Positions 2,535 to 34,387 of a stretch of DNA of 34,387 bases are shown in pieces. Numbering within the stretch: the stretch's first letter is position 1; each line of letters begins with the position of its first letter. Origin of the DNA: Actinomyces polynesiensis (GTDB lineage Bacteria > Actinomycetota > Actinomycetes > Actinomycetales > Actinomycetaceae); NCBI RefSeq assembly GCF_000820725.1, contig NZ_CCXH01000078.1, positions 1-34,387 on the forward strand, given 5' to 3'. The notes beneath the pieces are model-generated. The model had not been told where the DNA came from, did not search any database, and was given only the letters and a program-made list of their open reading frames with translations. The position numbers were made by a program, and so were the translations under genes.

Positions 2535-2616
2535 AAATGGGTTGTCATGATGGTGTCACAAGTTGTCCGCCGTGTCACATCCGTCACGGACACGATTCGG
2601 TAACACCACCCCCGGC

Positions 2617-2731
2617 GAGGTCCGCTCTGTTCCCACCGCGAAATCCGCTCTGTTCTGACCTCGAGGTCCGCCCCGTACTGGGCCCGAGGTCCGCCCTGTT
2701 CCGGGCCCGAGGTCCGCTCCCCTCCCCTGCC
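2617..2731 (+). repeat. 23-nt direct-repeat array A (four full units plus terminal decayed unit)
   Basis: Units start at 2617, 2640, 2663, 2686 and 2709, exactly 23 nt apart. Each begins GARRTCCGC and the full ones continue into a TCTGTTC-like block; the last 7 bases vary. The fifth unit keeps only GAGGTCCGCTCC and then diverges. There are no spacers between units. The array lies in a divergent intergenic region upstream of both flanking genes. The same family occurs at 13602, 20884, 25997, 26976 and 29842. Confidence 0.85.
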
Positions 2732-11517: not shown

Positions 11518-11527
11518 GGGGATGGCC

Positions 11528-13576
11528 ATGGACTCCCCCCGTCTCCACGCACGGCTCGCACTGGGGGCCCTCCTGGCCGTCCTGGCCCTCGGCGGTTGCC
11601 GGGACGCCGGTGCGGAGTACGCCCAGTCCGAGGAGTCCCAGAGCATGGCGGCACCACCCACCGATCTCGCCGCCCTCCCCGAGGAGTCCCTGGCCACACC
11701 TCCGGCACTGAGGCTCGCCGAGGACCTCGTCCCCCCGACGAACCGCTGGTTCTCCGGGTTGGTCTTCCCCGAGGAGGCCCAGCCGGTGTTCCCCAGCCCG
11801 CTGTCCTACACCCCCACCACGGACGGGTTCGAGGTCGGGGTCCCGGAGGTCACGGCCTCCGCCTCCACCATCATGGGTCCGGCCGCCGCGGACGTTCGGG
11901 TGGAGGCGGGTGCCGGGGACTTCCTGGTCACGCGCTACGACGACGCGAGCCTCACCCTGACCCTGCGCGGGCAGGCCGCTGACGGCTCGACGGGCGGGGA
12001 CCTCCTCGACGTCACACTCGCCGAGGGCTCCCCCGTGGTCGGACTCAGCGCCCGCGCCCACCTGGACGTCACGCTCCACGCCCAGTCCTGGGAGGAGCTC
12101 GGCGGGGACGGGCAGTGGGTGGGCAGCTCCGCCTCCGGGCGCGCCTGGGTGGTCACCGCCCCCGCAGGCGCCAGCGCCTCGGGTGGGACGCTGACGGTGC
12201 CACTGGACGCGGACGAGGGCGCCGCCCTCGTCGCCGCACCGGACGGACTGACGCCCACCGCGGGCGACGAGGTCACCGGGGCGGTACCCGTGACCTCCAC
12301 GCGCGCCACCCACTCGACGCAGGACGGGGAGGCGCGGACCACCCTCGACTACCTCACGGCCGACGGTTCCCCGACCCTGCTCACCACGGCCCCGCACCAG
12401 GGGACGTGCGGCACCGAGGTCGGGACCTACCCCTCCGTCAACGGGACTCTCCACGCGTGCTCCGGCAACTCCCTGGAGTGGACGGCACCGGTGGTGGAGG
12501 CCCTGGACCGCCTCGACCTCGGCCGGCTCACGGACGAGGAGAGGGATGAGCTCACCGACCAGGTGCGCACCGATGCGGCCACCGAGAGGGAGCTGCCGGC
12601 GGACACGTACTTCGGGGGCAAGGCCCTGCAGCGCGAGGCCTCCCTCATGCTCATCGCCGAGGAACTCGGGATGGACGCCGAGGCCGCGCAGCTGCGCACC
12701 CGGGTGGGCGACGCACTGCGGACCTGGGCGGAGGCCGAGGGGTGCTCCTCCCGGGACGAGCGCTGTTTCACCTACGACCCCGTCCAGCACCTCGTGGTGG
12801 GCAAGGCGATCGCCTTCGGCTCCGAGACCGCCAATGACGCCCACTTCCACCTGGGCTACTTCCTCAGTGCGGCCGCCATGGTGGGCGCGGGGGATCCGGA
12901 ACTGGCCCAGGAGATCGCACCCGTGATCGACGCCCTGGCCCAGACGGTGGGCGCGGGCAGCACCAGCACCTTCGCGCCACGCCTGCGGACCTTCGACGTC
13001 TACTGGTCCCACTCCTGGGCCTCCGGCTGGGCACCCTTCGCCGACGGGAACAACCAGGAGTCCGTCTCCGAGGCCGTCAACGCGTGGAACGGGCTGGCGT
13101 TGTGGGCGCGCGTGCGCGGGCAGGCTGACCTGGAGGAACGCGCGACCTGGATGCTGTCGATGGAGGCGCACGCCTCGGACGCCTACTGGACGGACTTCGA
13201 CCGGGCGGACCCCGTGTACGAGGGCTTCGACCACAAGGTCGTGTCCCTGGAGTGGGGCGGGAAGAGGGACTGGGCGACCTGGTTCTCCCCCGAGCCCTCG
13301 GCCATGCTGGGGATCCTCGTCATCCCCGCGCCCCCGGTCGCCGACTACCTGGCCGGGGACCCGGGGCGGATCCGGGAGAACCTGGAGGAGGCCCTGGCGG
13401 GGGCCGAGGACCACGACGTGATGTTCGGTGACCAGCTGCTCATGTACCGGTCCCTGGCCGGAGCGGAGGATGCGGCTGAGGCGCTGGACCTGGCACGCGC
13501 CCTGCCGGAGGAACGCATCGACGACGGGAACACCCGTTCCTACCTGCTGGCCTTCGTCATGTCGCACCTGCGCTGA
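11528..13576 (+). CDS. GH81 endo-beta-1,3-glucanase, lipoprotein
   Basis: 682-aa secreted glycoside hydrolase. It has a type II signal peptide with lipobox LGGC, so it is anchored outside the membrane. GH81 marks are TNRWFSGLVF near the N-terminus, HFHLGYFLSAAAMVGAGDP in the helical domain, and the active-site block YWSHSWASGW (about 492-501) followed by DGNNQESVSEAVNAW (about 506-520), which carries the family's paired glutamates. GH81 enzymes cut beta-1,3-glucan internally with inversion. ATG 11528 is preferred over ATG 11522 because GAGGGG lies 6 nt upstream of 11528 but abuts 11522. Its place right behind the synthase and fusion protein mirrors BcsZ-type glucanases that trim or release their own polymer; a purely degradative role is the alternative. 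Confidence 0.88.
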   Translation: MDSPRLHARLALGALLAVLALGGCRDAGAEYAQSEESQSMAAPPTDLAALPEESLATPPALRLAEDLVPPTNRWFSGLVFPEEAQPVFPSPLSYTPTTDGFEVGVPEVTASASTIMGPAAADVRVEAGAGDFLVTRYDDASLTLTLRGQAADGSTGGDLLDVTLAEGSPVVGLSARAHLDVTLHAQSWEELGGDGQWVGSSASGRAWVVTAPAGASASGGTLTVPLDADEGAALVAAPDGLTPTAGDEVTGAVPVTSTRATHSTQDGEARTTLDYLTADGSPTLLTTAPHQGTCGTEVGTYPSVNGTLHACSGNSLEWTAPVVEALDRLDLGRLTDEERDELTDQVRTDAATERELPADTYFGGKALQREASLMLIAEELGMDAEAAQLRTRVGDALRTWAEAEGCSSRDERCFTYDPVQHLVVGKAIAFGSETANDAHFHLGYFLSAAAMVGAGDPELAQEIAPVIDALAQTVGAGSTSTFAPRLRTFDVYWSHSWASGWAPFADGNNQESVSEAVNAWNGLALWARVRGQADLEERATWMLSMEAHASDAYWTDFDRADPVYEGFDHKVVSLEWGGKRDWATWFSPEPSAMLGILVIPAPPVADYLAGDPGRIRENLEEALAGAEDHDVMFGDQLLMYRSLAGAEDAAEALDLARALPEERIDDGNTRSYLLAFVMSHLR

Positions 13577-13601
13577 CCAGCCCCACCCCCCAGACCCCGC
13601 C

Positions 13602-13762
13602 GAAGTCCGCTCAGTTCTGGTGTCGAGGTCCGCTCAGTTCTGGGGTCGAAGTCCGCTCAGTTCTGGGGTCGAAGTCCGCTCAGTTCTGGGGTCGAGGTCC
13701 GCTCAGTTCGGGCCCTGAGGTCCGTCCTGATCAGGGCACGAGGTCCGCCCCCGCCCCGGGCC
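13602..13762 (+). repeat. 23-nt direct-repeat array B (five full units, two decayed)
   Basis: Units start at 13602, 13625, 13648, 13671, 13694, 13717 and 13740, exactly 23 nt apart. Units three and four are identical. The core is GARGTCCGCTCAGTTC, followed mostly by TGGGGTC. The last two units decay after GAGGTCCGTCC and GAGGTCCGCCC. The array fills the space between the convergent glucanase and phosphorylase genes, starting 25 nt after one stop and ending 21 nt before the other. It is the best-preserved copy of the family. Confidence 0.92.
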
Positions 13763-16838: not shown

Positions 16839-18197
16839 TCAGAAGCCCGCGGCCCACGCGGTCTGGGCTGCCGTGGCGGCCTCGGCGGCCGTGTCGGTGC
16901 CCAGCGGGGAGAGTGCCGGGTAGTTGAACGGGTACACCGCGTCGTCACCGGCCTTGTTGTTGGCGATCCAGACCTGGTCCCAAGCGGGCTGGTAGGTCTT
17001 GGTGTAGTCCGCGATCGAGTTCAGGAAGTCCGAGGAGTCGATCCCGGGCTGGGCCGGGGAGAAGCCGGCCTTGTTCACGAAGGTCGCGTAGTTGGTCGGG
17101 TCGGAGAAGAAGTCGAGCCACGCGAGGGCGGCCTCCTGGTTCTTCGAGTTCGAGGCGACCGCGAGCTGGAGCTCGATCTTGCCGTTGAGCAGGGCGTTGT
17201 CGGCCGCGTTGTCGGAGCCGGGGAAGGGGATGTAACCGTACTCGAAGGCACCGTTGACGGCGGAATCGATGGTGGGCTGGTTCCAGGTCCCGTCGGGGAG
17301 CATCGCGAAGTCACCGCGCGCGAAGGCCGCGGGCATGTCGTCGTAGCCGGCGCCGGAGAAGTTGTCCTGGGCGTTCTCGAAGACGGTCTGGGTCTTCTCG
17401 AGGATGGACTGGGTGTCCGTGTCGGTGAGGGAGACCTTCTGGGTCCACAGGCCCTCGGCCAGGGACTGCTTGGCCTCCAGGGTCGGGTAGGCGGAGGCGA
17501 CGTTGCCCAGCATGACGAGACCGGCCGGCCAGGTGTCCTTGCCGCCGATGCCGAAGGGGGTGATGTCCTTGGCCTTCAGGGTCTTGATCACGTCCTGGAG
17601 CTCGGACCAGGTGGTGGGGGCCTCCAGGCCGTTCTCCTCGAAGATCGTCTTGTTGTAGTAGACGCCGGTGGAGTAGCTCAGGCCGGTGGGGACGGCGTAC
17701 TGCTTGCCGTCGATGGCCTGCGCGTCGAGCACGGAGGACGTGTAGTTCTTCATGAAGGGCTGGTCGGTGAGGTCGACCAGGCCGCCCGCCTGCGCCATCA
17801 GCACGTCGTCGGAGGTCGAGTCGGAGGCGTACGAGGGCGCCTCGACGAAGTTCTTGACGACGAAGATGTCGACCGAGCCCGCGGAGAGCTGCGCGGACTT
17901 CGTGGCCGGGTAGGAGTCGTTGGGGACCGAGGTGACCTTCGCGTCCACGTTGGGGTACTTCTCCTTGAAGGCGGTCGTGATCGCGTTGAAGGCCTCGTCC
18001 GACGCCGAGGCGCTCGAGACGAGGATGTTCAGCGAACCCGACAGGTCCGAGGGGGCAGTGCTGGCGCCGGACTCGCCCGACGCGGAACCGGTGGACCCGC
18101 CTCCGCAGGCGGCCAGGGTGCCCACCATCGCGAGGGACGCGGCCCCGGCGACCAGGGTGCGCGAGACGCGCCCCGCGCGGGAGTTGCTGTGTTGCAT
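16839..18197 (-). CDS. Extracellular sugar-binding lipoprotein of the mannoside ABC transporter
   Basis: 452-aa binding protein (SBP family 1). The signal peptide ends in lipobox LAAC (about Cys31) and is followed by a Gly/Ser linker. The mature protein shows SBP features such as LNILVSSASASDEAFNAI, GLSYSTGVYYNKTIFEENGL, FARGDFAMLPDGTWNQP and ALAWLDFFSDPTNYATFVNK. ATG 18197 has AAGGAG 6 nt upstream. An operator-like near-palindrome lies 21-34 nt upstream of the start, so repression by the adjacent LacI protein is likely. Binding-protein specificity is inferred from the neighbouring GH130 and ManA genes: probably a beta-mannose-containing oligosaccharide. Confidence 0.92.
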   Translation of the reverse strand: MQHSNSRAGRVSRTLVAGAASLAMVGTLAACGGGSTGSASGESGASTAPSDLSGSLNILVSSASASDEAFNAITTAFKEKYPNVDAKVTSVPNDSYPATKSAQLSAGSVDIFVVKNFVEAPSYASDSTSDDVLMAQAGGLVDLTDQPFMKNYTSSVLDAQAIDGKQYAVPTGLSYSTGVYYNKTIFEENGLEAPTTWSELQDVIKTLKAKDITPFGIGGKDTWPAGLVMLGNVASAYPTLEAKQSLAEGLWTQKVSLTDTDTQSILEKTQTVFENAQDNFSGAGYDDMPAAFARGDFAMLPDGTWNQPTIDSAVNGAFEYGYIPFPGSDNAADNALLNGKIELQLAVASNSKNQEAALAWLDFFSDPTNYATFVNKAGFSPAQPGIDSSDFLNSIADYTKTYQPAWDQVWIANNKAGDDAVYPFNYPALSPLGTDTAAEAATAAQTAWAAGF

Positions 18198-20868: not shown

Positions 20869-20883
20869 GCACCCCCTGAGCGC

Positions 20884-20952
20884 GAAGTCCGCTCTGTTCT
20901 CCCCGCGAGGTCCGCTCAGTTCTGCCCCCGAGGTCCGTCCCCGTCCAGTCGG
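20884..20952 (+). repeat. 23-nt direct-repeat array C (two full units plus decayed unit)
   Basis: Units start at 20884, 20907 and 20930. The first two carry GAAGTCCGCTCTGTTC and GAGGTCCGCTCAGTTC; the third keeps GAGGTCCGTCC and then diverges. The array lies in the divergent gap upstream of the SRAP gene, 16 nt beyond the candidate manA promoter. Confidence 0.85.
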
Positions 20953-20961
20953 CGAGTGCTG

Positions 20962-21009
20962 CCCGTCCGCTCCCCGGGCACCGGTCCCGTCCGCTCCCCG
21001 GGTACCGGT
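20962..21009 (+). repeat. 24-nt tandem duplication
   Basis: Two adjacent 24-nt copies (20962-20985 and 20986-21009) differ at one base. Each contains GTCCGCTCCCCGGG, which shares GTCCGCTC with the 23-nt family ending just upstream, so it may be a diverged relative. Confidence 0.7.
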
Positions 21010-21143
21010 CACGCCCGCCCGCTCCCCACGGGCAGTGTGCCCGCCACCGCCCATCCGCCTCGCCCGCGTGCCTCTCCCTCTCACCGCGCCCACCTGTCGC
21101 ACTGCGTGGGAGGATCGGGACACCCGAGATCCGGAGGTGCCCG

Positions 21144-25021: not shown

Positions 25022-25411
25022 GTGCCCGAACAGCCCCGTGACCCGCGCCCGGAACCCCGTCGTTCCGGTGGTGGGGGCCGCCCTCGGGGCAAGCAGACCC
25101 GCGGTGGTGCACGTGGGAGGCGAGGCGCGAAGCCGCCCTCGTCGACACCGGAGCGCCGGGAGGGACGCCCCGACCGCACCCCCGGCGCGACCCCGGGCGT
25201 GGAGGGGACGTCGACGCGCCCCCCACGTCCACGACGCCACCGCAACCCCCGCCACCAGCGCGCCCACGTCTTCCGGCCCTTCACGCCCGAGCAGCTCGCC
25301 GCGCGCGCCGCCGCGATCCCCGTGATCACCTACCCCGACCTGCCCGTCTCCGACCGCCGCCACGACATCGCCGAGGCCATCCGGGACAACCAGGTCGTCA
25401 TCGTCTCGTGA
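25022..25411 (+). CDS. hrpA: hrpA piece 1: N-terminal segment up to Walker A
   Basis: 129 codons from GTG 25022 to TGA 25409-25411. Residues 1-75 are strongly basic and low complexity (Arg/Pro/Gly). Homology begins near ITYPDLPVSDRRHDIAEAIR and ends in NQVVIVS, which in HrpA is followed directly by GETGSGKT. The stop codon falls where that first glycine codon should be. Two bases are missing, or one is extra, relative to an intact frame. Confidence 0.7.
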   Translation: MPEQPRDPRPEPRRSGGGGRPRGKQTRGGARGRRGAKPPSSTPERREGRPDRTPGATPGVEGTSTRPPRPRRHRNPRHQRAHVFRPFTPEQLAARAAAIPVITYPDLPVSDRRHDIAEAIRDNQVVIVS

Positions 25412-28400
25412 GACCGGCTCGGGGAAGACCACCCAGCTGCCGAAGATCTGCCTGCAGCTCGGCCGCGGGGTGGCCGGGATGATCGGGCACACCCAACCCC
25501 GACGCATCGCCGCGCGCGCGGTGGCGGACCGCATCGCCGAGGAACTCGGACAGAAGGTGGGCCGGGCGCCGGGCGAGGTCATCGGCTACCAGGTGCGTTT
25601 CACCGACGAGGTCGGGCCCACCACCCTCGTCAAGCTCATGACCGACGGCATCCTGTTGGCCGAGATCCAGTCCGACCCGCTCCTGCGCCGCTACGACACC
25701 CTCATCATCGACGAGGCCCACGAGCGCTCCCTCAACATCGACTTCATCCTCGGCTACATCGCGCGCCTGCTGCCGCTGCGCCCCGACCTCAAGGTCGTCA
25801 TCACCTCCGCGACCATCGACTCCACGCGCTTCGCGGCACACTTCGGGAGGTGGGAGGGGCGTCGCGGACGGTCGCGGCTGGTCGCCCCGGCTCCCGTCAT
25901 CGAGGTGTCGGGCCGCACCTACCCGGTGGAGATCCGCTACCGGCCGCTGTCGGCCGACCTGCCGCGCAACTGGTCCTCCTCCACCCCCCCTTCGGCGAAG
26001 TCCGCTCAGTTCCCACCTCGAAGTCCGTCCTCCCCTGCGGCGAGACCCGCCTCCACGGGCCGCGGCACGGACGGGGTGCCGACCGGGAGCAGGCCTGACA
26101 CCGCTGACGCCGAGTGGTCGGGAACCAACGGGGACATCGCCTCCGACGAGACCGGGACCCCGCACCCCGGCGTCCAACAGCTGGTCCTGGAGGACCCCGA
26201 CGACGACCTGCCCACCCTCGGCTACGGCCTGGGGGAGGACATCGACCAGGAGCAGGCCATCTGTGACGCCGTTGACGAGCTCTGCGCCGAGGGACCCGGC
26301 GACATCCTCGTGTTCCTGCCCGGTGAGCGCGACATCCGCGACACCCAGCAGGCCCTGGCCGACCACCTGGGCCCCCGCGCCCTGATCGACCCGAAGGCGC
26401 CCCACCGACCCGACGCCATCGAGATAGTGCCGCTGTTCGCGCGCCTGACCGCCGCCGAGCAGCACCGTGTCTTCGAGCCCCACTCCCTGCGCCGCGTCGT
26501 GCTCGCCACCAATGTCGCCGAGACCTCGCTCACCGTGCCCGGCGTCCGCTACGTCATCGACCCGGGCCTGGCCCGCATCTCCCGGTACTCGAACCGCACC
26601 AAGGTCCAGCGTCTCCCCATCGAGCCGATCTCCCAGGCCAGCGCCAACCAGAGGGCCGGGCGATCCGGGCGCGTCGCCGACGGCGTCGCGATCCGCCTCT
26701 ACTCCCAGCGCGACTACGAGTCCCGCCCCGAGTTCACCGAGCCGGAGATCCTGCGCACCTCCCTGGCCTCCGTCATCCTGCAGATGGCGGCCCTGGGTCT
26801 GGGCGCCGTGTCCGACTTCCCCTTCCTGGACCCCCCGGAGCCGCGCGCCGTGCGCGACGGCATCCAGCTCCTGGTCGAGATCGGGGCACTGGAGCCCGAT
26901 GACGCTGCGGCCCCGCCCTCGTCCGTGGGCACCGGCACCGCCACCGCCGGCCACGACCGCCGCGGGGGGAGGGACACCGGTGCACGAGGGCGGACCTCGA
27001 GCCCCGAACAGAGCGGACTTCGCCGGAGTGGGGGGCACCGGCTCACCGCCGTCGGGCGGGACCTCGCGACCCTGCCCATCGACCCGCGCCTGGGGCGCAT
27101 GCTCATCGAGGGCGACGCGAACGGCTGCGCCTCGGAGGTCCTGGTCATCGTGGCCGCCCTGTCCATCCAGGACGTCCGCGAGCGCCCCCTGGACCACCAG
27201 CAGGCCGCCGACGCCTCCCACGCCCGCTTCACGGACCCGACCTCCGACTTCATCACCTACCTCAACCTGTGGCGCTACCTCAACGTCCAGTCCCGCGACC
27301 TGTCGGGCTCGGCGTTCCGGCGCATGTGCCGCGGGGAGTTCCTCCACTACCTGCGTTTCCGCGAGTGGCGGGACGTCGTCAACCAGCTGCGCCAGATGGC
27401 ACGACCCCTCGACCTCGACATCCACCCCATCGGGGAGCCCACCCCCGCCCAGGTCGCCCACGCCGCGGCCTCCGGTGGCATCGCCGACGCGGCGGCACGG
27501 GCCGTGGTCGCCTACACGGCCTCCTCCGGCACGGTCGACGCGGACGAGGTGCACCGCGCGCTGCTCGTGGGACTGCTCTCGAACCTCGGCAACTGGGACG
27601 AGGCCAAACGGGACTACGCCGGCGCCCGAGGCACGCACTTCACGATCTGGCCGGGCTCCGGCCTGGCGCGCTCCCACCCCGCCTGGGTGATGACGGCGGA
27701 ACTGGTGGAGACCTCCAGGCTCTTCGCGCGCACCGTCGCCCGGATCCGCCCGGAGTGGATCGAACCCCTGGCCGGGCCCCTGCTGCGCCGGGTCTACTCC
27801 GAGCCGTACTGGTCGACCTCCCGCGGCGCGGCCATGGTCAAGGAGAAGGTCCTCCTCTACGGGATGACCCTGGTCGCCGACCGCCCGGTGCTCCTCGGGC
27901 GCCTCGACGTCACCTTCGGCGGGGGTCAGCGTCGCTCCTCCGTGGCGCGACCCGGGACCCTCGCCGGCGTGGCCCAGGGACTGCGCGCCCGGGGACGCGG
28001 GGAACGCGAGGTCGGGGAGTCCACCGCCCTCGCGGACGCACTCAGCGAGGCGCTGGTGGCCTTCGGCGTGGAGGGCACGGTCGGCAGCGGCAGCGGCGCG
28101 CACGAGGGCGGCCCCGCGGCAGCTTCCGGCACCACCTCGGGTTCGCCTGAGGGGGGCTCCGGCACCACCTCGGGTTCGCCTGAGGGGGGCTCCGGCACCA
28201 CCTCGGGTTCGCCTGAGGGGGGCTCCGGCACCACCTCGGGTCCCGCCGCCGCTTCCGGTGCCACGTCTGACGCCGAGCCCCCCGCAGGTGCGACCGACCC
28301 GGGACCCGTGACACCGGCCGGCCCGGACGCCGGGGAGGGACCGGAAGCGGACACCGGCCCGGAGGTCGACGCGGAATCCGCGGAGGACTCCGGCATCACC

Positions 28401-29525
28401 GCCCGCGAGCTCGCCCGCGAGATGTTCATCCGCCATGCCCTGGTGCTGGGCGAGTGGCGCGAACACCACCGCTTCATGGACCGCAACCAGGAGCTCCTCG
28501 AGGATGCCCGCGAGGCCGAACGCCGCTCCCGCACCCATGGTCTCGTGGCCGACGAGGAGGCGCGCTTCGCCTTCTTCGACGACCTGATCCCCGCCGACAT
28601 CGTCTCGGCCCGCCACTTCGACCAGTGGTGGAAGCACCAGCGCCGCGAGACCCCCGACCTGCTCACCTACACCCCGCGGATGCTCCTGCCCCGGGGGGCG
28701 GGGACGGATCCCCGCGACTTCCCCGACCACTGGCAACAGGGGGACCTCCGGCTGCCGCTGACCTACCGTTTCACCCCCGGGTCCACCCGCGACGGCGTGA
28801 CGATGACGATCCCCGTGGAGGTGCTGCCGCGGGTCGGCGAGCAGGGAACCGACTGGCTGGTTCCGGGCATGCTCGAGGACCTCTGCACGGAGATGGTGCG
28901 CGCCCTGCCCAAGGCGAAGCGACGGCTGCTGGCACCTGCACCCGAGGTGGGGACCAAGGTTGCGCAGTGGCTCACCCGCGCGCTCGCGGGGGAGACCCCG
29001 ACGGGACCCGCCGCGGGGGACGCCGGCGCGACACCCTCCGGACAGGGCGGTTCCCGGTCCGGTACAGAGTCCCGGCCGGACACCCGACGGGGCGGCGACG
29101 GGAGCGGAACGACCCCCGACCCCCGCTCGCTCGACGCGGCGTTGGGACGCCTGGCGGCCTGGACGCGTGCGAGCGGACAGAGGAACACCCCGGCCCGGGG
29201 AGCCGTGTCCGGCGCAGGGTCGGATGCCGGGTTTCCGTCCGCGGGCAGTTCCTCGCCGGGAACCGGCACGACGACGCCGGCAGCGTCTCCGGCATCCGCG
29301 CCCACGGCCGCACCCGCACCCACGGGGGGCATCCGCGTCCTCAGGGGCGTCCACGCCCGCGGCGACACCGGGCGGGACCTCCGGGGAGGGCTCCGCCCCG
29401 TCCGCGGAGTCGTGGAGGCTCCACCGCCCACCCTTCACCCAGGCCTTCGCCCGCGCCGTCTCCGAGGTGCGCGGAGTGAACCTGTCCCCCGCGGACCTCG
29501 CCCACGCCGAGGCCGGACTGCCTGA
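25410..29525 (+). CDS. hrpA: hrpA piece 2: DEAH helicase core, HA2/OB and first part of DUF3418
   Basis: Open from 25410 to 29525; the first in-frame ATG-like start is at 25470, but homology begins at ETGSGKTTQLPKICLQLGRG (25410). Helicase motifs are complete apart from the first Walker A glycine: TQPRR (Ia), IIDEAHERS (II, DEAH), ITSATID (III), DILVFLPGERDIRD (IV), NVAETSLTVPG (V) and QRAGRSGRV (VI). HA2 follows (EILRTSLASVILQMAALGLG). Insertions lie after YRPL (25960-26220), before LTAVGRDLATLP (26900-27040), and before ARELAREMFIRHALVLGEW (28080-28390). After about 29324 the encoded sequence stops matching HrpA; the matching frame is piece 3. Confidence 0.78.
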   Translation, partial: ETGSGKTTQLPKICLQLGRGVAGMIGHTQPRRIAARAVADRIAEELGQKVGRAPGEVIGYQVRFTDEVGPTTLVKLMTDGILLAEIQSDPLLRRYDTLIIDEAHERSLNIDFILGYIARLLPLRPDLKVVITSATIDSTRFAAHFGRWEGRRGRSRLVAPAPVIEVSGRTYPVEIRYRPLSADLPRNWSSSTPPSAKSAQFPPRSPSSPAARPASTGRGTDGVPTGSRPDTADAEWSGTNGDIASDETGTPHPGVQQLVLEDPDDDLPTLGYGLGEDIDQEQAICDAVDELCAEGPGDILVFLPGERDIRDTQQALADHLGPRALIDPKAPHRPDAIEIVPLFARLTAAEQHRVFEPHSLRRVVLATNVAETSLTVPGVRYVIDPGLARISRYSNRTKVQRLPIEPISQASANQRAGRSGRVADGVAIRLYSQRDYESRPEFTEPEILRTSLASVILQMAALGLGAVSDFPFLDPPEPRAVRDGIQLLVEIGALEPDDAAAPPSSVGTGTATAGHDRRGGRDTGARGRTSSPEQSGLRRSGGHRLTAVGRDLATLPIDPRLGRMLIEGDANGCASEVLVIVAALSIQDVRERPLDHQQAADASHARFTDPTSDFITYLNLWRYLNVQSRDLSGSAFRRMCRGEFLHYLRFREWRDVVNQLRQMARPLDLDIHPIGEPTPAQVAHAAASGGIADAAARAVVAYTASSGTVDADEVHRALLVGLLSNLGNWDEAKRDYAGARGTHFTIWPGSGLARSHPAWVMTAELVETSRLFARTVARIRPEWIEPLAGPLLRRVYSEPYWSTSRGAAMVKEKVLLYGMTLVADRPVLLGRLDVTFGGGQRRSSVARPGTLAGVAQGLRARGRGEREVGESTALADALSEALVAFGVEGTVGSGSGAHEGGPAAASGTTSGSPEGGSGTTSGSPEGGSGTTSGSPEGGSGTTSGPAAASGATSDAEPPAGATDPGPVTPAGPDAGEGPEADTGPEVDAESAEDSGITARELAREMFIRHALVLGEWREHHRFMDRNQELLEDAREAERRSRTHGLVADEEARFAFFDDLIPADIVSARHFDQWWKHQRRETPDLLTYTPRMLLPRGAGTDPRDFPDHWQQGDLRLPLTYRFTPGSTRDGVTMTIPVEVLPRVGEQGTDWLVPGMLEDLCTEMVRALPKAKRRLLAPAPEVGTKVAQWLTRALAGETPTGPAAGDAGATPSGQGGSRSGTESRPDTRRGGDGSGTTPDPRSLDAALGRLAAWTRASGQRNTPARGAVSGAGSDAGFPSAGSSSPGTGTTTPAASPASAPTAAPAPTGGIRVLRGVHARGDTGRDLRGGLRPVRGVVEAPPPTLHPGLRPRRLRGARSEPVPRGPRPRRGRTA
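25997..26042 (+). repeat. 23-nt repeat array D inside hrpA (one full plus one decayed unit)
   Basis: GAAGTCCGCTCAGTTC at 25997 followed by seven further bases, then a second unit at 26020 that keeps GAAGTCCGTCC and decays. Orientation is the same as the gene. It is read as PSAKSAQFPPRSPSS in the helicase loop between YRPL and the next motif, where E. coli HrpA has only a short linker. Confidence 0.8.
26976..27021 (-). repeat. 23-nt repeat array E inside hrpA (one full plus one decayed unit)
   Basis: On the minus strand a full unit GAAGTCCGCTCTGTTC occupies 27021-26999, then a decayed unit beginning GAGGTCCGCC at 26998. Antisense to hrpA. Encodes RTSSPEQSGLRRSGG in an inserted loop just before LTAVGRDLATLP. 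Confidence 0.78.
28125..28241 (+). repeat. 33-bp in-frame tandem repeat in hrpA, three perfect copies plus 18 bp
   Basis: Identical 33-nt units start at 28125, 28158 and 28191, followed by a partial copy at 28224. Each encodes an 11-residue GTTSGSPEGGS block. The unit is a multiple of three, so copy-number change keeps the frame. It lies in a low-complexity linker before the ARELAREMF segment. Confidence 0.92.
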
Positions 29526-30849
29526 GCACCTGCACATGACCTTCGTGGTCGAGGACTCCTCCGGGCGTGAACTGGGAGCGGGACCGTCCCTCGTCCAGCT
29601 GCAGCGCACCCTCGCCTCCCAGGCGGACAAGGCGGTGCGCACCGCCGTGCGCGGCGCGGTGGCGGAGGCGTTCGCGGAGGCCGCACGCCACGACGGGCGC
29701 CACGACGGGCACGGTCAGACCGGTGCTCAGGGTCACGCCCGGAAGGGTCGGCGGGGCACGGTCGGGGAGGCTGCACCCACGAGCCGCTCCGGCGCCGCGG
29801 AGGGTTCAGGGGTGCCGTCCTCGTCGACCGGTGCGGTGCCCGGGGGACCAGAGGGACGGACCTCAGGGCCGGAACAGAGCGGACCTCGAGGGGAGAACGG
29901 AGCGGACTTCGGGGCTGGAACAGAGCGGACCTCGGCGGAGCTGCACGCGGACGGCCTGGTGGAGTTCCCCCCTGTCCCCCTTCCGCGCTCGGTCGAGTCC
30001 CGCGGCACCGCAGGCATGCTCCTGCGCGGCTTCCCCGCCCTCGTGCCCCAGGGCACCGCCGACGCCCCCACTGCGGGTGTGCGCGTCATGGCCAGCCCCG
30101 CCGAGGCGGACCGCCAGCACCGCCTCGGGCTGGCCCGCCTCCTGCTGGCCCGGTTGCACCTGTCCACGACACGGGTGACGACGCGCTGGACCGGCCGGGA
30201 GGCCCTCATGCTGGCCGCCTCCCCCTATCCCGACACGACGGCACTGTTGGCCGACGCGCAGCTCGCCTCCGCGCAGTCCCTGGTCGACGAGCTCTCCGGG
30301 GACCGGGGCCCCTCCGCGGTGCGCTCCCGGGAGGCCTTCGAGATCCTGGCCGCCCGCGCCCGGGAGCTGCACGAGGACCGGGTGCACGACATCCTCGGCC
30401 ACGTGGTGCGGGCCCTGGGGGCGCTGGGGGAGGTGGAGGGCATGGTGCGCGACCACCCGGAGGCCTCCCTGCACGAGGTCGTCGCCGAGGTGCGCGGACA
30501 GTCACGGGACCTGGTCCACGCGGGCTTCCTCGCCGACACCCCGGTCTGGGCGCTCCCCCACCTCGCCCGCTACCTGCGGGCCGGGGCGGTGCGCATCGGG
30601 AAGGCCGCGCAGGGTGCCCGCGCCCTGGCGCGTGACACCCGCGACGCGGAGGTGGTGCGCGACGTCTCCGAGGAGGTCGACTCCGCGCGGGAGCGCGCCG
30701 CCGCCCGACCCTTCGAGCCCGTCGAGGCGGCGCGCCTGGAACGGGCCCGCTGGATGGTCCAGGAGCTGCGCGTGTCCCTGTTCGCCCAGCAGCTGGGGAC
30801 ACCGCAGAAGGTCTCCGCCAAGCGGATCCTCGGGATGGTGGAACAGTGA
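29326..30849 (+). CDS. hrpA: hrpA piece 3: C-terminal DUF3418 region
   Basis: Frame continuing hrpA homology after the G6 run; it has no good start of its own, though the frame stays open upstream to about 28960. It carries FTQAFARAVSEVRGVNLSP, PEHLHMTFVVEDSSGRELG, GFPALV, RLGLARLLLARLHLS and the family's C-terminal helix block ERARWMVQELRVSLFAQQLG. It contains repeat array F between residues encoded at 29842 and 29933. Its TGA overlaps the GTG of the next gene. Confidence 0.78.
   Translation, partial: GASASSGASTPAATPGGTSGEGSAPSAESWRLHRPPFTQAFARAVSEVRGVNLSPADLAHAEAGLPEHLHMTFVVEDSSGRELGAGPSLVQLQRTLASQADKAVRTAVRGAVAEAFAEAARHDGRHDGHGQTGAQGHARKGRRGTVGEAAPTSRSGAAEGSGVPSSSTGAVPGGPEGRTSGPEQSGPRGENGADFGAGTERTSAELHADGLVEFPPVPLPRSVESRGTAGMLLRGFPALVPQGTADAPTAGVRVMASPAEADRQHRLGLARLLLARLHLSTTRVTTRWTGREALMLAASPYPDTTALLADAQLASAQSLVDELSGDRGPSAVRSREAFEILAARARELHEDRVHDILGHVVRALGALGEVEGMVRDHPEASLHEVVAEVRGQSRDLVHAGFLADTPVWALPHLARYLRAGAVRIGKAAQGARALARDTRDAEVVRDVSEEVDSARERAAARPFEPVEAARLERARWMVQELRVSLFAQQLGTPQKVSAKRILGMVEQ
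29842..29933 (-). repeat. 23-nt repeat array F inside hrpA (three full plus one decayed unit)
   Basis: Reading on the minus strand, full units occupy 29933-29911, 29910-29888 and 29887-29865, then a decayed unit GAGGTCCGTCC at 29864-29842. The three full units total 69 nt (23 codons), so they keep the reading frame. The plus-strand translation is SGPEQSGPRGENGADF and onward. Confidence 0.88.
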
Positions 30850-31425: not shown

Positions 31426-31476
31426 CACCAGAACCTCGGGTGCACCAGAACCTCAGGCGCACCAGAACCTCAGGTG
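31426..31476. repeat. Three tandem 17-nt direct repeats between convergent genes
   Basis: CACCAGAACCTCRGGYG occurs at 31426, 31443 and 31460 with exact 17-nt spacing. The last copy overlaps the stop codon of the transglutaminase gene. Read on the minus strand it contains GAGGTTCTGGTG, which resembles a shortened form of the 23-nt unit (GAGGT joined to TTCTGG), a possible but unproven relation. Confidence 0.8.
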
Positions 31477-34127: not shown

Positions 34128-34387
34128 CGGTGGCACCGCCCCGCGCGGATGCGCCGTCAGTCCGTGCAGGAGTGCCGCCAGCCCGTGTGGGTGTCCCGCT
34201 GACCCGTACCGGAGTCCCACGGTCACGCAGGGGTGCACCACCGGTCCGGGCGGGGCCCCGACCGGCGCCGGGCCGCGCGGGCCCCGTCCGGCCAGGCCTG
34301 TTCCCCGGCGGCACCGCCTGCGTCCCGGTCGCCGCCGGGAGGCTGGCGAGACTCCAGCCCTCCGGCACACTCTGCTCCGCCCTCGTC
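34120..34387 (-). CDS. C-terminal fragment of an upstream gene (possibly DUF58), partial
   Basis: A frame open from the right edge to a TGA at 34120-34122. The first residues (SVPEGWSLASLPAATG) look protein-like; the last 60 or so are Pro/Gly/Arg/Thr-rich low complexity. The stop overlaps the ATG of the transglutaminase gene, as expected for an operon. DUF58 is suggested only by the common MoxR-DUF58-TgpA order; nothing in the fragment proves it. Confidence 0.4.
   Translation of the reverse strand, partial: TRAEQSVPEGWSLASLPAATGTQAVPPGNRPGRTGPARPGAGRGPARTGGAPLRDRGTPVRVSGTPTRAGGTPARTDGASARGGATDA

Follow-up and report, generated by a model that had tools for sequence, protein, structure and literature searches.

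The hrpA gene of Actinomyces polynesiensis raises the question of how short tandem repeats come to lie inside a gene for a DEAH-box helicase, and whether they made the linkers in which they are found or arrived there later. The gene lies on contig NZ_CCXH01000078.1 (positions 1 to 34,387, forward strand; NCBI RefSeq assembly GCF_000820725.1, 309 contigs), and this whole 34,387-nt stretch is referred to below as the window. A preliminary reading of the window (the sequence-only reading) had described three repeat arrays, D, E and F, in both orientations within hrpA, each in a segment absent from E. coli HrpA, and had taken the arrays to be the inserts. The repeat unit is 23 nt long and consists of a 17-nt core, YGARGTCCGCTCWGTTC, followed by 6 free bases. 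With up to three mismatches, the core matches the window 18 times, compared with a mean of 0.58 and a maximum of 3 in shuffles. Six arrays, A to F, account for 17 of the 18 matches, the remaining one being an isolated site at 17886 with two mismatches. Arrays D (25996..26030, + strand, one unit), E (26988..27022, − strand, one unit) and F (29854..29934, − strand, three units) are located in hrpA, E and F being antisense to the gene, and each includes a half unit of 12 nt, which is terminal in D. All three are real repeats in the orientations first described, and the three full units ascribed to array F were confirmed, with the half unit in addition. By eye, the inverted symmetry of the core does not reach past GAG/CTC, in agreement with the earlier statement that the unit is not a palindrome.

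The predicted hrpA product, with its DEAH-box helicase, HA2, OB and DUF3418 domains, is close to solved HrpA. In the window, the main open frame (25326..29325, + strand) encodes the DEAH helicase core, HA2, the OB fold and the first part of DUF3418, and the rest of DUF3418 follows in another frame (29330..30849, + strand). The gene as assembled switches frame twice, at about 25.41 kb, ahead of which the start of the protein is encoded in another frame, and at about 29.3 kb, the second change sitting within a low-complexity linker; array F therefore falls outside the open reading frame that holds D and E. In the sister species G014 (L119), hrpA is a single open frame of 2382 codons, a number that includes a repeat of ~1.1 kb adjoining an N, and holds D, E and F. 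The claim that the arrays stand in open frame thus holds locally and in G014, but not along the whole of the window gene. Since 5 of 55 well-covered G014 proteins were split over two frames in the fetched stretches of the window's genome (G000), and 2 of 55 in the reverse comparison, assembly error is a fair guess for the frame breaks. Two frame breaks in a genome of 309 contigs might also suggest that the arrays themselves are an assembly artefact, or a chance similarity in compositionally biased linkers. This explanation is refuted by the 18 matches where 0.58 were expected, by the 23-nt spacing and by the arrays at the same hrpA sites in the independent genome G014, and its probability is negligible.

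Two other repeats were observed in this gene. The ~1.1-kb repeat of G014 is a direct duplication (about 7367-9635 of L119) with one copy boundary at array E; its copies are alike at the protein level and flank the N. The duplication is probably an assembly artefact caused by scaffold overlap, the alternative being a true unequal crossover at array E. In the window, a separate in-frame tandem repeat of 33 nt (28125-28241, 3.5 perfect copies) lies in the linker between the OB-fold region and DUF3418, and is missing from the G014 protein.

When 20 same-genus relatives were aligned together with G014, nearly all of them had the linkers that hold arrays D, E and F, in unrelated sequence and of widely varying length; in one relative (L128), linker D is missing and two or three residues stand at E. 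The arrays fill only part of these segments: linker D extends from about 25947 to 26241 and linker E from about 26907 to 27030, array F lies in a DUF3418 linker, and a coincidence of array edges with insert edges, proposed as a check in the sequence-only reading, was not seen. Judged from these alignments, the hrpA linkers are old, and the arrays are later additions, not the makers of the linkers. The sequence-only reading had named unrelated sequence in orthologous linkers as the sign that the repeats were chance features; such linkers exist, and the arrays are not the inserts, but the excess of matches over shuffles shows that the repeats are nonetheless not chance. Comparison with the structure in PDB 9ggr, which we take to be E. 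coli HrpA, used a query that covered linkers D and E and left out F. Because query residues 193-287 stand opposite 6 residues and 511-549 opposite none, linkers D and E are absent from that structure, and to this extent the stated absence from E. coli HrpA was borne out. In an AlphaFold2 model built with 33 relatives, likewise covering D and E and not F, the two linkers (model residues 181-278 and 501-541) have no secondary structure, and their block values of the predicted local distance difference test (pLDDT) are 28-41. The model is poor (mean pLDDT 66.1, with conserved residues 1-70 and much of 388-450 also below about 50), and it points only weakly to linkers D and E lacking structure.

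The window's genome and G014 share 88.8% identity over 123,554 aligned bases, and this comparison bears on how the arrays change within hrpA. Array D is unchanged, with a further decayed half unit following it in G014. Array E counts four units in G014 against one in G000, a difference of 3 units, or 69 nt; the gaps in the E loop are 51, 3 and 69 nt, and the F arrays align without gaps, those in the flanks being 6, 30 and 21 nt. All length differences of the hrpA loops between the two species are multiples of three, which supports the frame maintenance described in the sequence-only reading. At the other orthologous arrays, the difference in unit number was not a multiple of three in 18 of 23 cases and was otherwise in the remaining 5; the 18 include two arrays without a G014 counterpart and the dapF tail described below, and the unit counts use cores with up to three mismatches, so that decay can mimic loss. 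The reading frame thus appears to act as a filter on arrays in hrpA. A contrast at W13, where an A on the antisense strand creates a TGA codon in one of the frames, is suggestive only: A was found in 0 of 14 antisense hrpA units and in 128 of 365 noncoding ones, but neither the units of one array nor those of the two species are independent, and two of the 14 come from the probable duplication. The idea of a unit designed to be open in all frames was also considered and found no support. Among 76 noncoding arrays of at least three units, the open frames numbered 64, 31 and 45 in the sense and 44, 52 and 49 in the antisense direction (mean openness of 61% and 64%, compared with 65% and 54% in shuffles).

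It could still be that the peptides encoded by the arrays, a 23-residue repeat for every three units, are selected in the HrpA protein. The same three array positions are occupied in two species that differ as much as G000 and G014 do, as this explanation would predict. On the other hand, the linkers are hypervariable among relatives, array D is decayed, array E has one unit or four, the model gives linkers D and E no structure (a weak point), and untranslated copies show conservation of the identical DNA core. We therefore regard selection on the peptides as very unlikely. The arrays' effect on HrpA is most likely limited to longer linkers.

Beyond hrpA, coding copies are few. In G014 miaA, a 2-unit array stands in the open frame, preceded by two ATG codons and followed by the conserved ATP-binding motif, and no array is present at miaA in G000 or in the 19 other same-genus loci read (the survey took in 20 same-genus loci, and L246 failed to match the motif used). 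The gene caller placed the start of G014 miaA past the array, at a GTG within the conserved ATP-binding strand; this start is judged to be wrong because relatives conserve residues ahead of the GTG, and the upstream ATG is the probable start. From these sequences, miaA would be the clearest coding case, an array inserted in G014 at a site that is empty in G000. No clean target-site duplication was seen there by eye. In G000, dapF continues into an array and takes its stop codon, TGA, from the half unit. Arrays inside called genes numbered 4 of the 77 examined in G000 (three in hrpA, one in dapF) and 5 of 59 in G014, four of these in hrpA (one from the probable duplication) and the fifth, a lone site with one mismatch, in L218. 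Placement just past stop codons is the rule, and copies in coding sequence are exceptional. Rickettsia palindromic elements are repeats that occur in frame within protein-coding genes (PMC10969869, in part), and the likeness drawn to them in the sequence-only reading is fair for the copies in G014 hrpA and the G000 dapF tail and, if the upstream ATG is used, for miaA, where it is clearest. Those elements, however, are palindromic, have a length of about 150 bp and code for a conserved peptide, whereas the present unit is non-palindromic and 23 nt long, its frame cycles over three units, and its coding copies are rare.

The rule was established on a G000 sample of 52 stretches around sites, plus the window, that held 173 sites with up to two mismatches (under a pattern slightly different from the one that gave the genome total of 213 below, at least one further site, on contig 258, lying outside the sample), and on a G014 sample of 29 stretches around hrpA and the first-listed + strand sites, whose counts are biased accordingly. 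Genes were called by a custom codon-usage script. Arrays outside called genes made up 73 of 77 in G000 and 54 of 59 in G014. Among these, 50 of 73 in G000 had a stop codon no more than 45 nt from their 5′ end, and 3 of 73 had one as close to their 3′ end (binomial p 6e-12); the corresponding numbers in G014 were 28 and 2 of 54 (binomial p 9e-7). When two arrays were less than 600 nt apart they were convergent in 21 of 22 pairs. A C-rich stretch lies ahead of the first unit, the 10 nt past the stop codon being 62% C where an array follows (n=47) and 41% C where none does (n=150), and 71 of 96 arrays have a half unit (at least 8 of 10 letters) at their inner end. A typical copy thus begins with a C-rich lead-in at its 5′ end, which faces the gene, continues with a number of head-to-tail 23-nt units and closes with a half unit. 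One array departs from this form: at 5541-5603 of L151, and at its G014 counterpart in L220, the first unit directly follows the coding sequence of a small methyltransferase with no C-rich lead-in, possibly a unit merged with native sequence.

Comparison of G000 and G014 also indicates which part of the unit is kept. When 44 G000 units carrying no more than one mismatch were aligned to G014, the fixed core positions were identical at 594 of 614 (97%), the three two-letter core positions at 102 of 132 and the spacer positions at 176 of 256 (69%); the units were selected by their G000 core, which leaves the G014 letters unconditioned. Because identity is so much higher in the core than in the spacers, the core looks constrained while the spacers drift. 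A 17-nt core constrained at fixed positions, and an exact spacing of 23 nt in 122 of 126 neighbouring G000 sites less than 60 nt apart, would also suit DNA sites for a sequence-specific binding protein (a roadblock, nucleoid or segregation factor) rather than RNA sites. The placement and orientation at stop codons, the bias of C over G on one strand and the weak RNA structure indicate the transcript instead, and we consider DNA-binding sites rather unlikely.

These RNA features can be stated as follows. The sense-strand RNA of 69 G000 arrays has less structure than mononucleotide shuffles do (mean z +1.0). Over the first 80 nt past the stop codon, the folding energy is -25.0 kcal/mol in array-bearing regions (n=41), compared with -37.8 kcal/mol in array-less ones (n=87; p 4e-11). 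G000 arrays contain C at 0.40 and G at 0.27, compared with 0.38 for both in 302 array-less 3′ regions, and YC dinucleotides occur at 0.29 per nt on the sense strand and 0.11 on the antisense strand. Weakly structured RNA with more C than G is what Rho loading sites are made of (PMC4167861 and PMC6407284, each in part), and by these criteria the C-over-G, weakly structured RNA past stop codons, with three units spanning 69 nt, resembles a Rho utilization (rut) site. A rule modelled on RhoTermPredict, with a self-chosen C/G threshold of 1.3 over 78 nt, showed a clear strand asymmetry, as on the antisense strand it was satisfied by 3 of 41 array-bearing and 31 of 87 array-less 3′ regions. A simple rule for hairpin terminators found none in either set (0 of 41 and 0 of 87), a result that is uninformative either way.

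From where the arrays lie and which way they point, together with their excess of C over G and the weak structure of their RNA, we infer an action on RNA or RNA polymerase. The reading that we favor, and that is probably correct, is that the arrays are constrained transcription or RNA sites at gene ends which have also landed in older hrpA linkers able to tolerate them. According to this proposal, each copy would act just past the stop codon, on the RNA or the RNA polymerase leaving the gene; the hrpA copies would have landed in older linkers tolerating extra residues, where versions that break the frame would be lost; and a Rho-type site inside hrpA would be masked by translation. The more specific statement that the arrays are sites of termination or insulation at gene ends, whether by Rho or by another factor, is our first guess as to their role, possible but short of probable. 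A bolder form is quite improbable: that the array is a selected, modular, factor-dependent terminator fitted to dozens of gene ends at once, whose in-frame copies in hrpA and miaA would be conditional intragenic terminators, silent under ribosomes.

Several observations weigh against the favored reading. On the sense strand the rut rule selected 26 of 41 array-bearing and 38 of 87 array-less 3′ regions, a weak difference (p 0.058), and a conserved 17-nt core exceeds any known requirement of Rho. Arrays pointing outward from a gene start (19 of 73 in G000 and 19 of 54 in G014, at a median distance of about 100 nt) are not predicted by a pure 3′-end role, unless antisense transcription is meant. 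The core identity may be inflated if non-orthologous units were aligned, although a spacer identity of 69% makes most unit pairs seem orthologous. Frame was not kept at the C-terminus of dapF, where the tail array differs by 2 units between the species. Array F, counted by cores with up to three mismatches, has 3 units in G000 and 5 in G014; alignment indicates that the G000 array holds decayed units over an equal number of bases, and the equal length is visible only there. Finally, the reading offers no account of how the arrays spread.

With respect to spread, sites with up to two mismatches numbered 213 in G000, 422 in G014 and 15 in a third genome, G029 (reversed-pattern controls of 1, 2 and 2), whereas the other same-genus genomes had 0 to 8, like their controls. 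Tandem pairs numbered 205, 429 and 7, respectively, with none in the reversed-pattern controls, none in the other 32 of the 35 genus-group genomes and none in 395 other genomes of an order-wide sample (from which G014 and G029 were absent). On this distribution, the 23-nt repeat, of which G000 holds about 200 copies, is a clade-specific dispersed family. Counterparts could be assigned to three G029 sites, each of them orthologous to a G000 array site (L259-L143, L255-L171 and L261-L164), with the G029 arrays at L259 and L255 shorter than their counterparts; some arrays therefore predate the species split, and unit numbers have changed since. hrpA was not found in the 88%-complete assembly of G029. 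At one G029 locus (L256), the unit is a variant with CCGGTCAGTTC in the core and irregular spacings of 88 and 45 nt, and may represent a diverged subfamily. Searches of viral contigs, phages and plasmids gave no match to the repeat, and carriage by any of these was rejected.

The large differences in tandem pairs between close species, the array in G014 miaA that is missing in G000, the defined array ends with their half unit and the convergent pairs could all reflect a selfish element, a non-palindromic counterpart of repetitive extragenic palindromic (REP) sequences, of REP doublets forming hairpins (REPINs) or of miniature inverted-repeat transposable elements (MITEs), moved by an unknown enzyme. 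Placement at stop codons would then result from target choice and purging, and hrpA would have tolerated three insertions. Against this stand a core identity far above that of the spacers after the species split, which is unexpected for dead copies, the lack of a common inner sequence in the array pairs, the absence of a clean target-site duplication at the few sites viewed by eye, the absence of a Y1 transposase of the REP-associated tyrosine transposase (RAYT) type from 34 genomes searched (G029 outside the search), and the lack of matches in viral contigs, phages and plasmids. This origin is doubtful, if less so than DNA-binding sites; it overlaps the passenger part of the favored reading, and termination, DNA-binding and selfish spread are partly compatible.

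The repeat resembles REPs, bacterial interspersed mosaic elements (BIMEs) and REPINs in having hundreds of short copies (213 and 422 sites), mostly outside called genes, often in opposite-facing pairs and variable in number between close relatives. It differs from them in that its unit is non-palindromic, lacks the GTAG tag and is arranged head to tail in arrays that end in a half unit. A search for RAYT (PF01797), positive in 5 of 14 known genomes used as a control, gave 0 of 34 genomes, G000 and G014 included and G029 not; REP/RAYT membership was rejected on this account, the unit also being no palindrome. With two defining features of REPs absent, the repeat is filed among dispersed bacterial repeats, as a variant not described before. 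MITEs (terminal inverted repeats, a shared core and a target-site duplication) were likewise rejected: the 18 of 21 convergent pairs with more than 25 nt of inner sequence shared no common core, the longest matches between different sites spanning 48 nt (79%) and 42 nt (83%) and the others mostly 12-24 nt, and miaA showed no clean duplication. Mycobacterial interspersed repetitive units and other bacterial variable-number tandem repeats form tandem arrays at many loci, with unit numbers that vary between strains or species; the present repeat differs in its conserved core with a free spacer and in an orientation tied to neighbouring stops. Rut sites, unlike the 23-nt repeat, are not known to share a fixed sequence or to be multiplied as repeats. 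REPs have themselves been linked to Rho-dependent termination (PMC2817692, in part).

Between the arms of three array pairs in G014 (L224, L215 and L228), we observed transposase-like genes, presumably of the IS256, IS110 and IS481/IS3 types, where G000 has short intergenic DNA; the flanks of one of these insertions overlap by 8 bp at the array half unit. A comparable case is ISPpu9, which sits within REPs (PMC8450116, in part).

The other arrays of the window lie outside hrpA, on the + strand. Array A (2616..2730) is intergenic and has five units, two of them with 3 mismatches. Array B (13601..13748), with five good units and decayed ones, begins 24 nt past the stop codon of a GH81-type gene (11522-13576), and array C (20883..20940) is intergenic, with two units and a half unit. 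Short tandem repeats with units of 24, 17, 21 and 26 nt and without the 23-nt core were observed at 20962-21018, 31426-31476 and 34154-34292. No known RNA family was detected in the window at gathering score. A literature search found nothing on this repeat, or on such repeats in Actinomyces or Schaalia, most subscription journals lying outside its coverage.

The finding describes a repeat family whose tandem pairs number from 7 to more than 400 in the three species across which it can be traced, and that has spilled over into coding sequence, with the reading frame as a filter. If its bolder form is true, one DNA element would be a terminator outside genes and a disordered protein linker inside them. 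The termination reading, if right, would illustrate how copying a single element lets a genome rewire its 3′ ends and how intergenic repeats turn into linkers of proteins.

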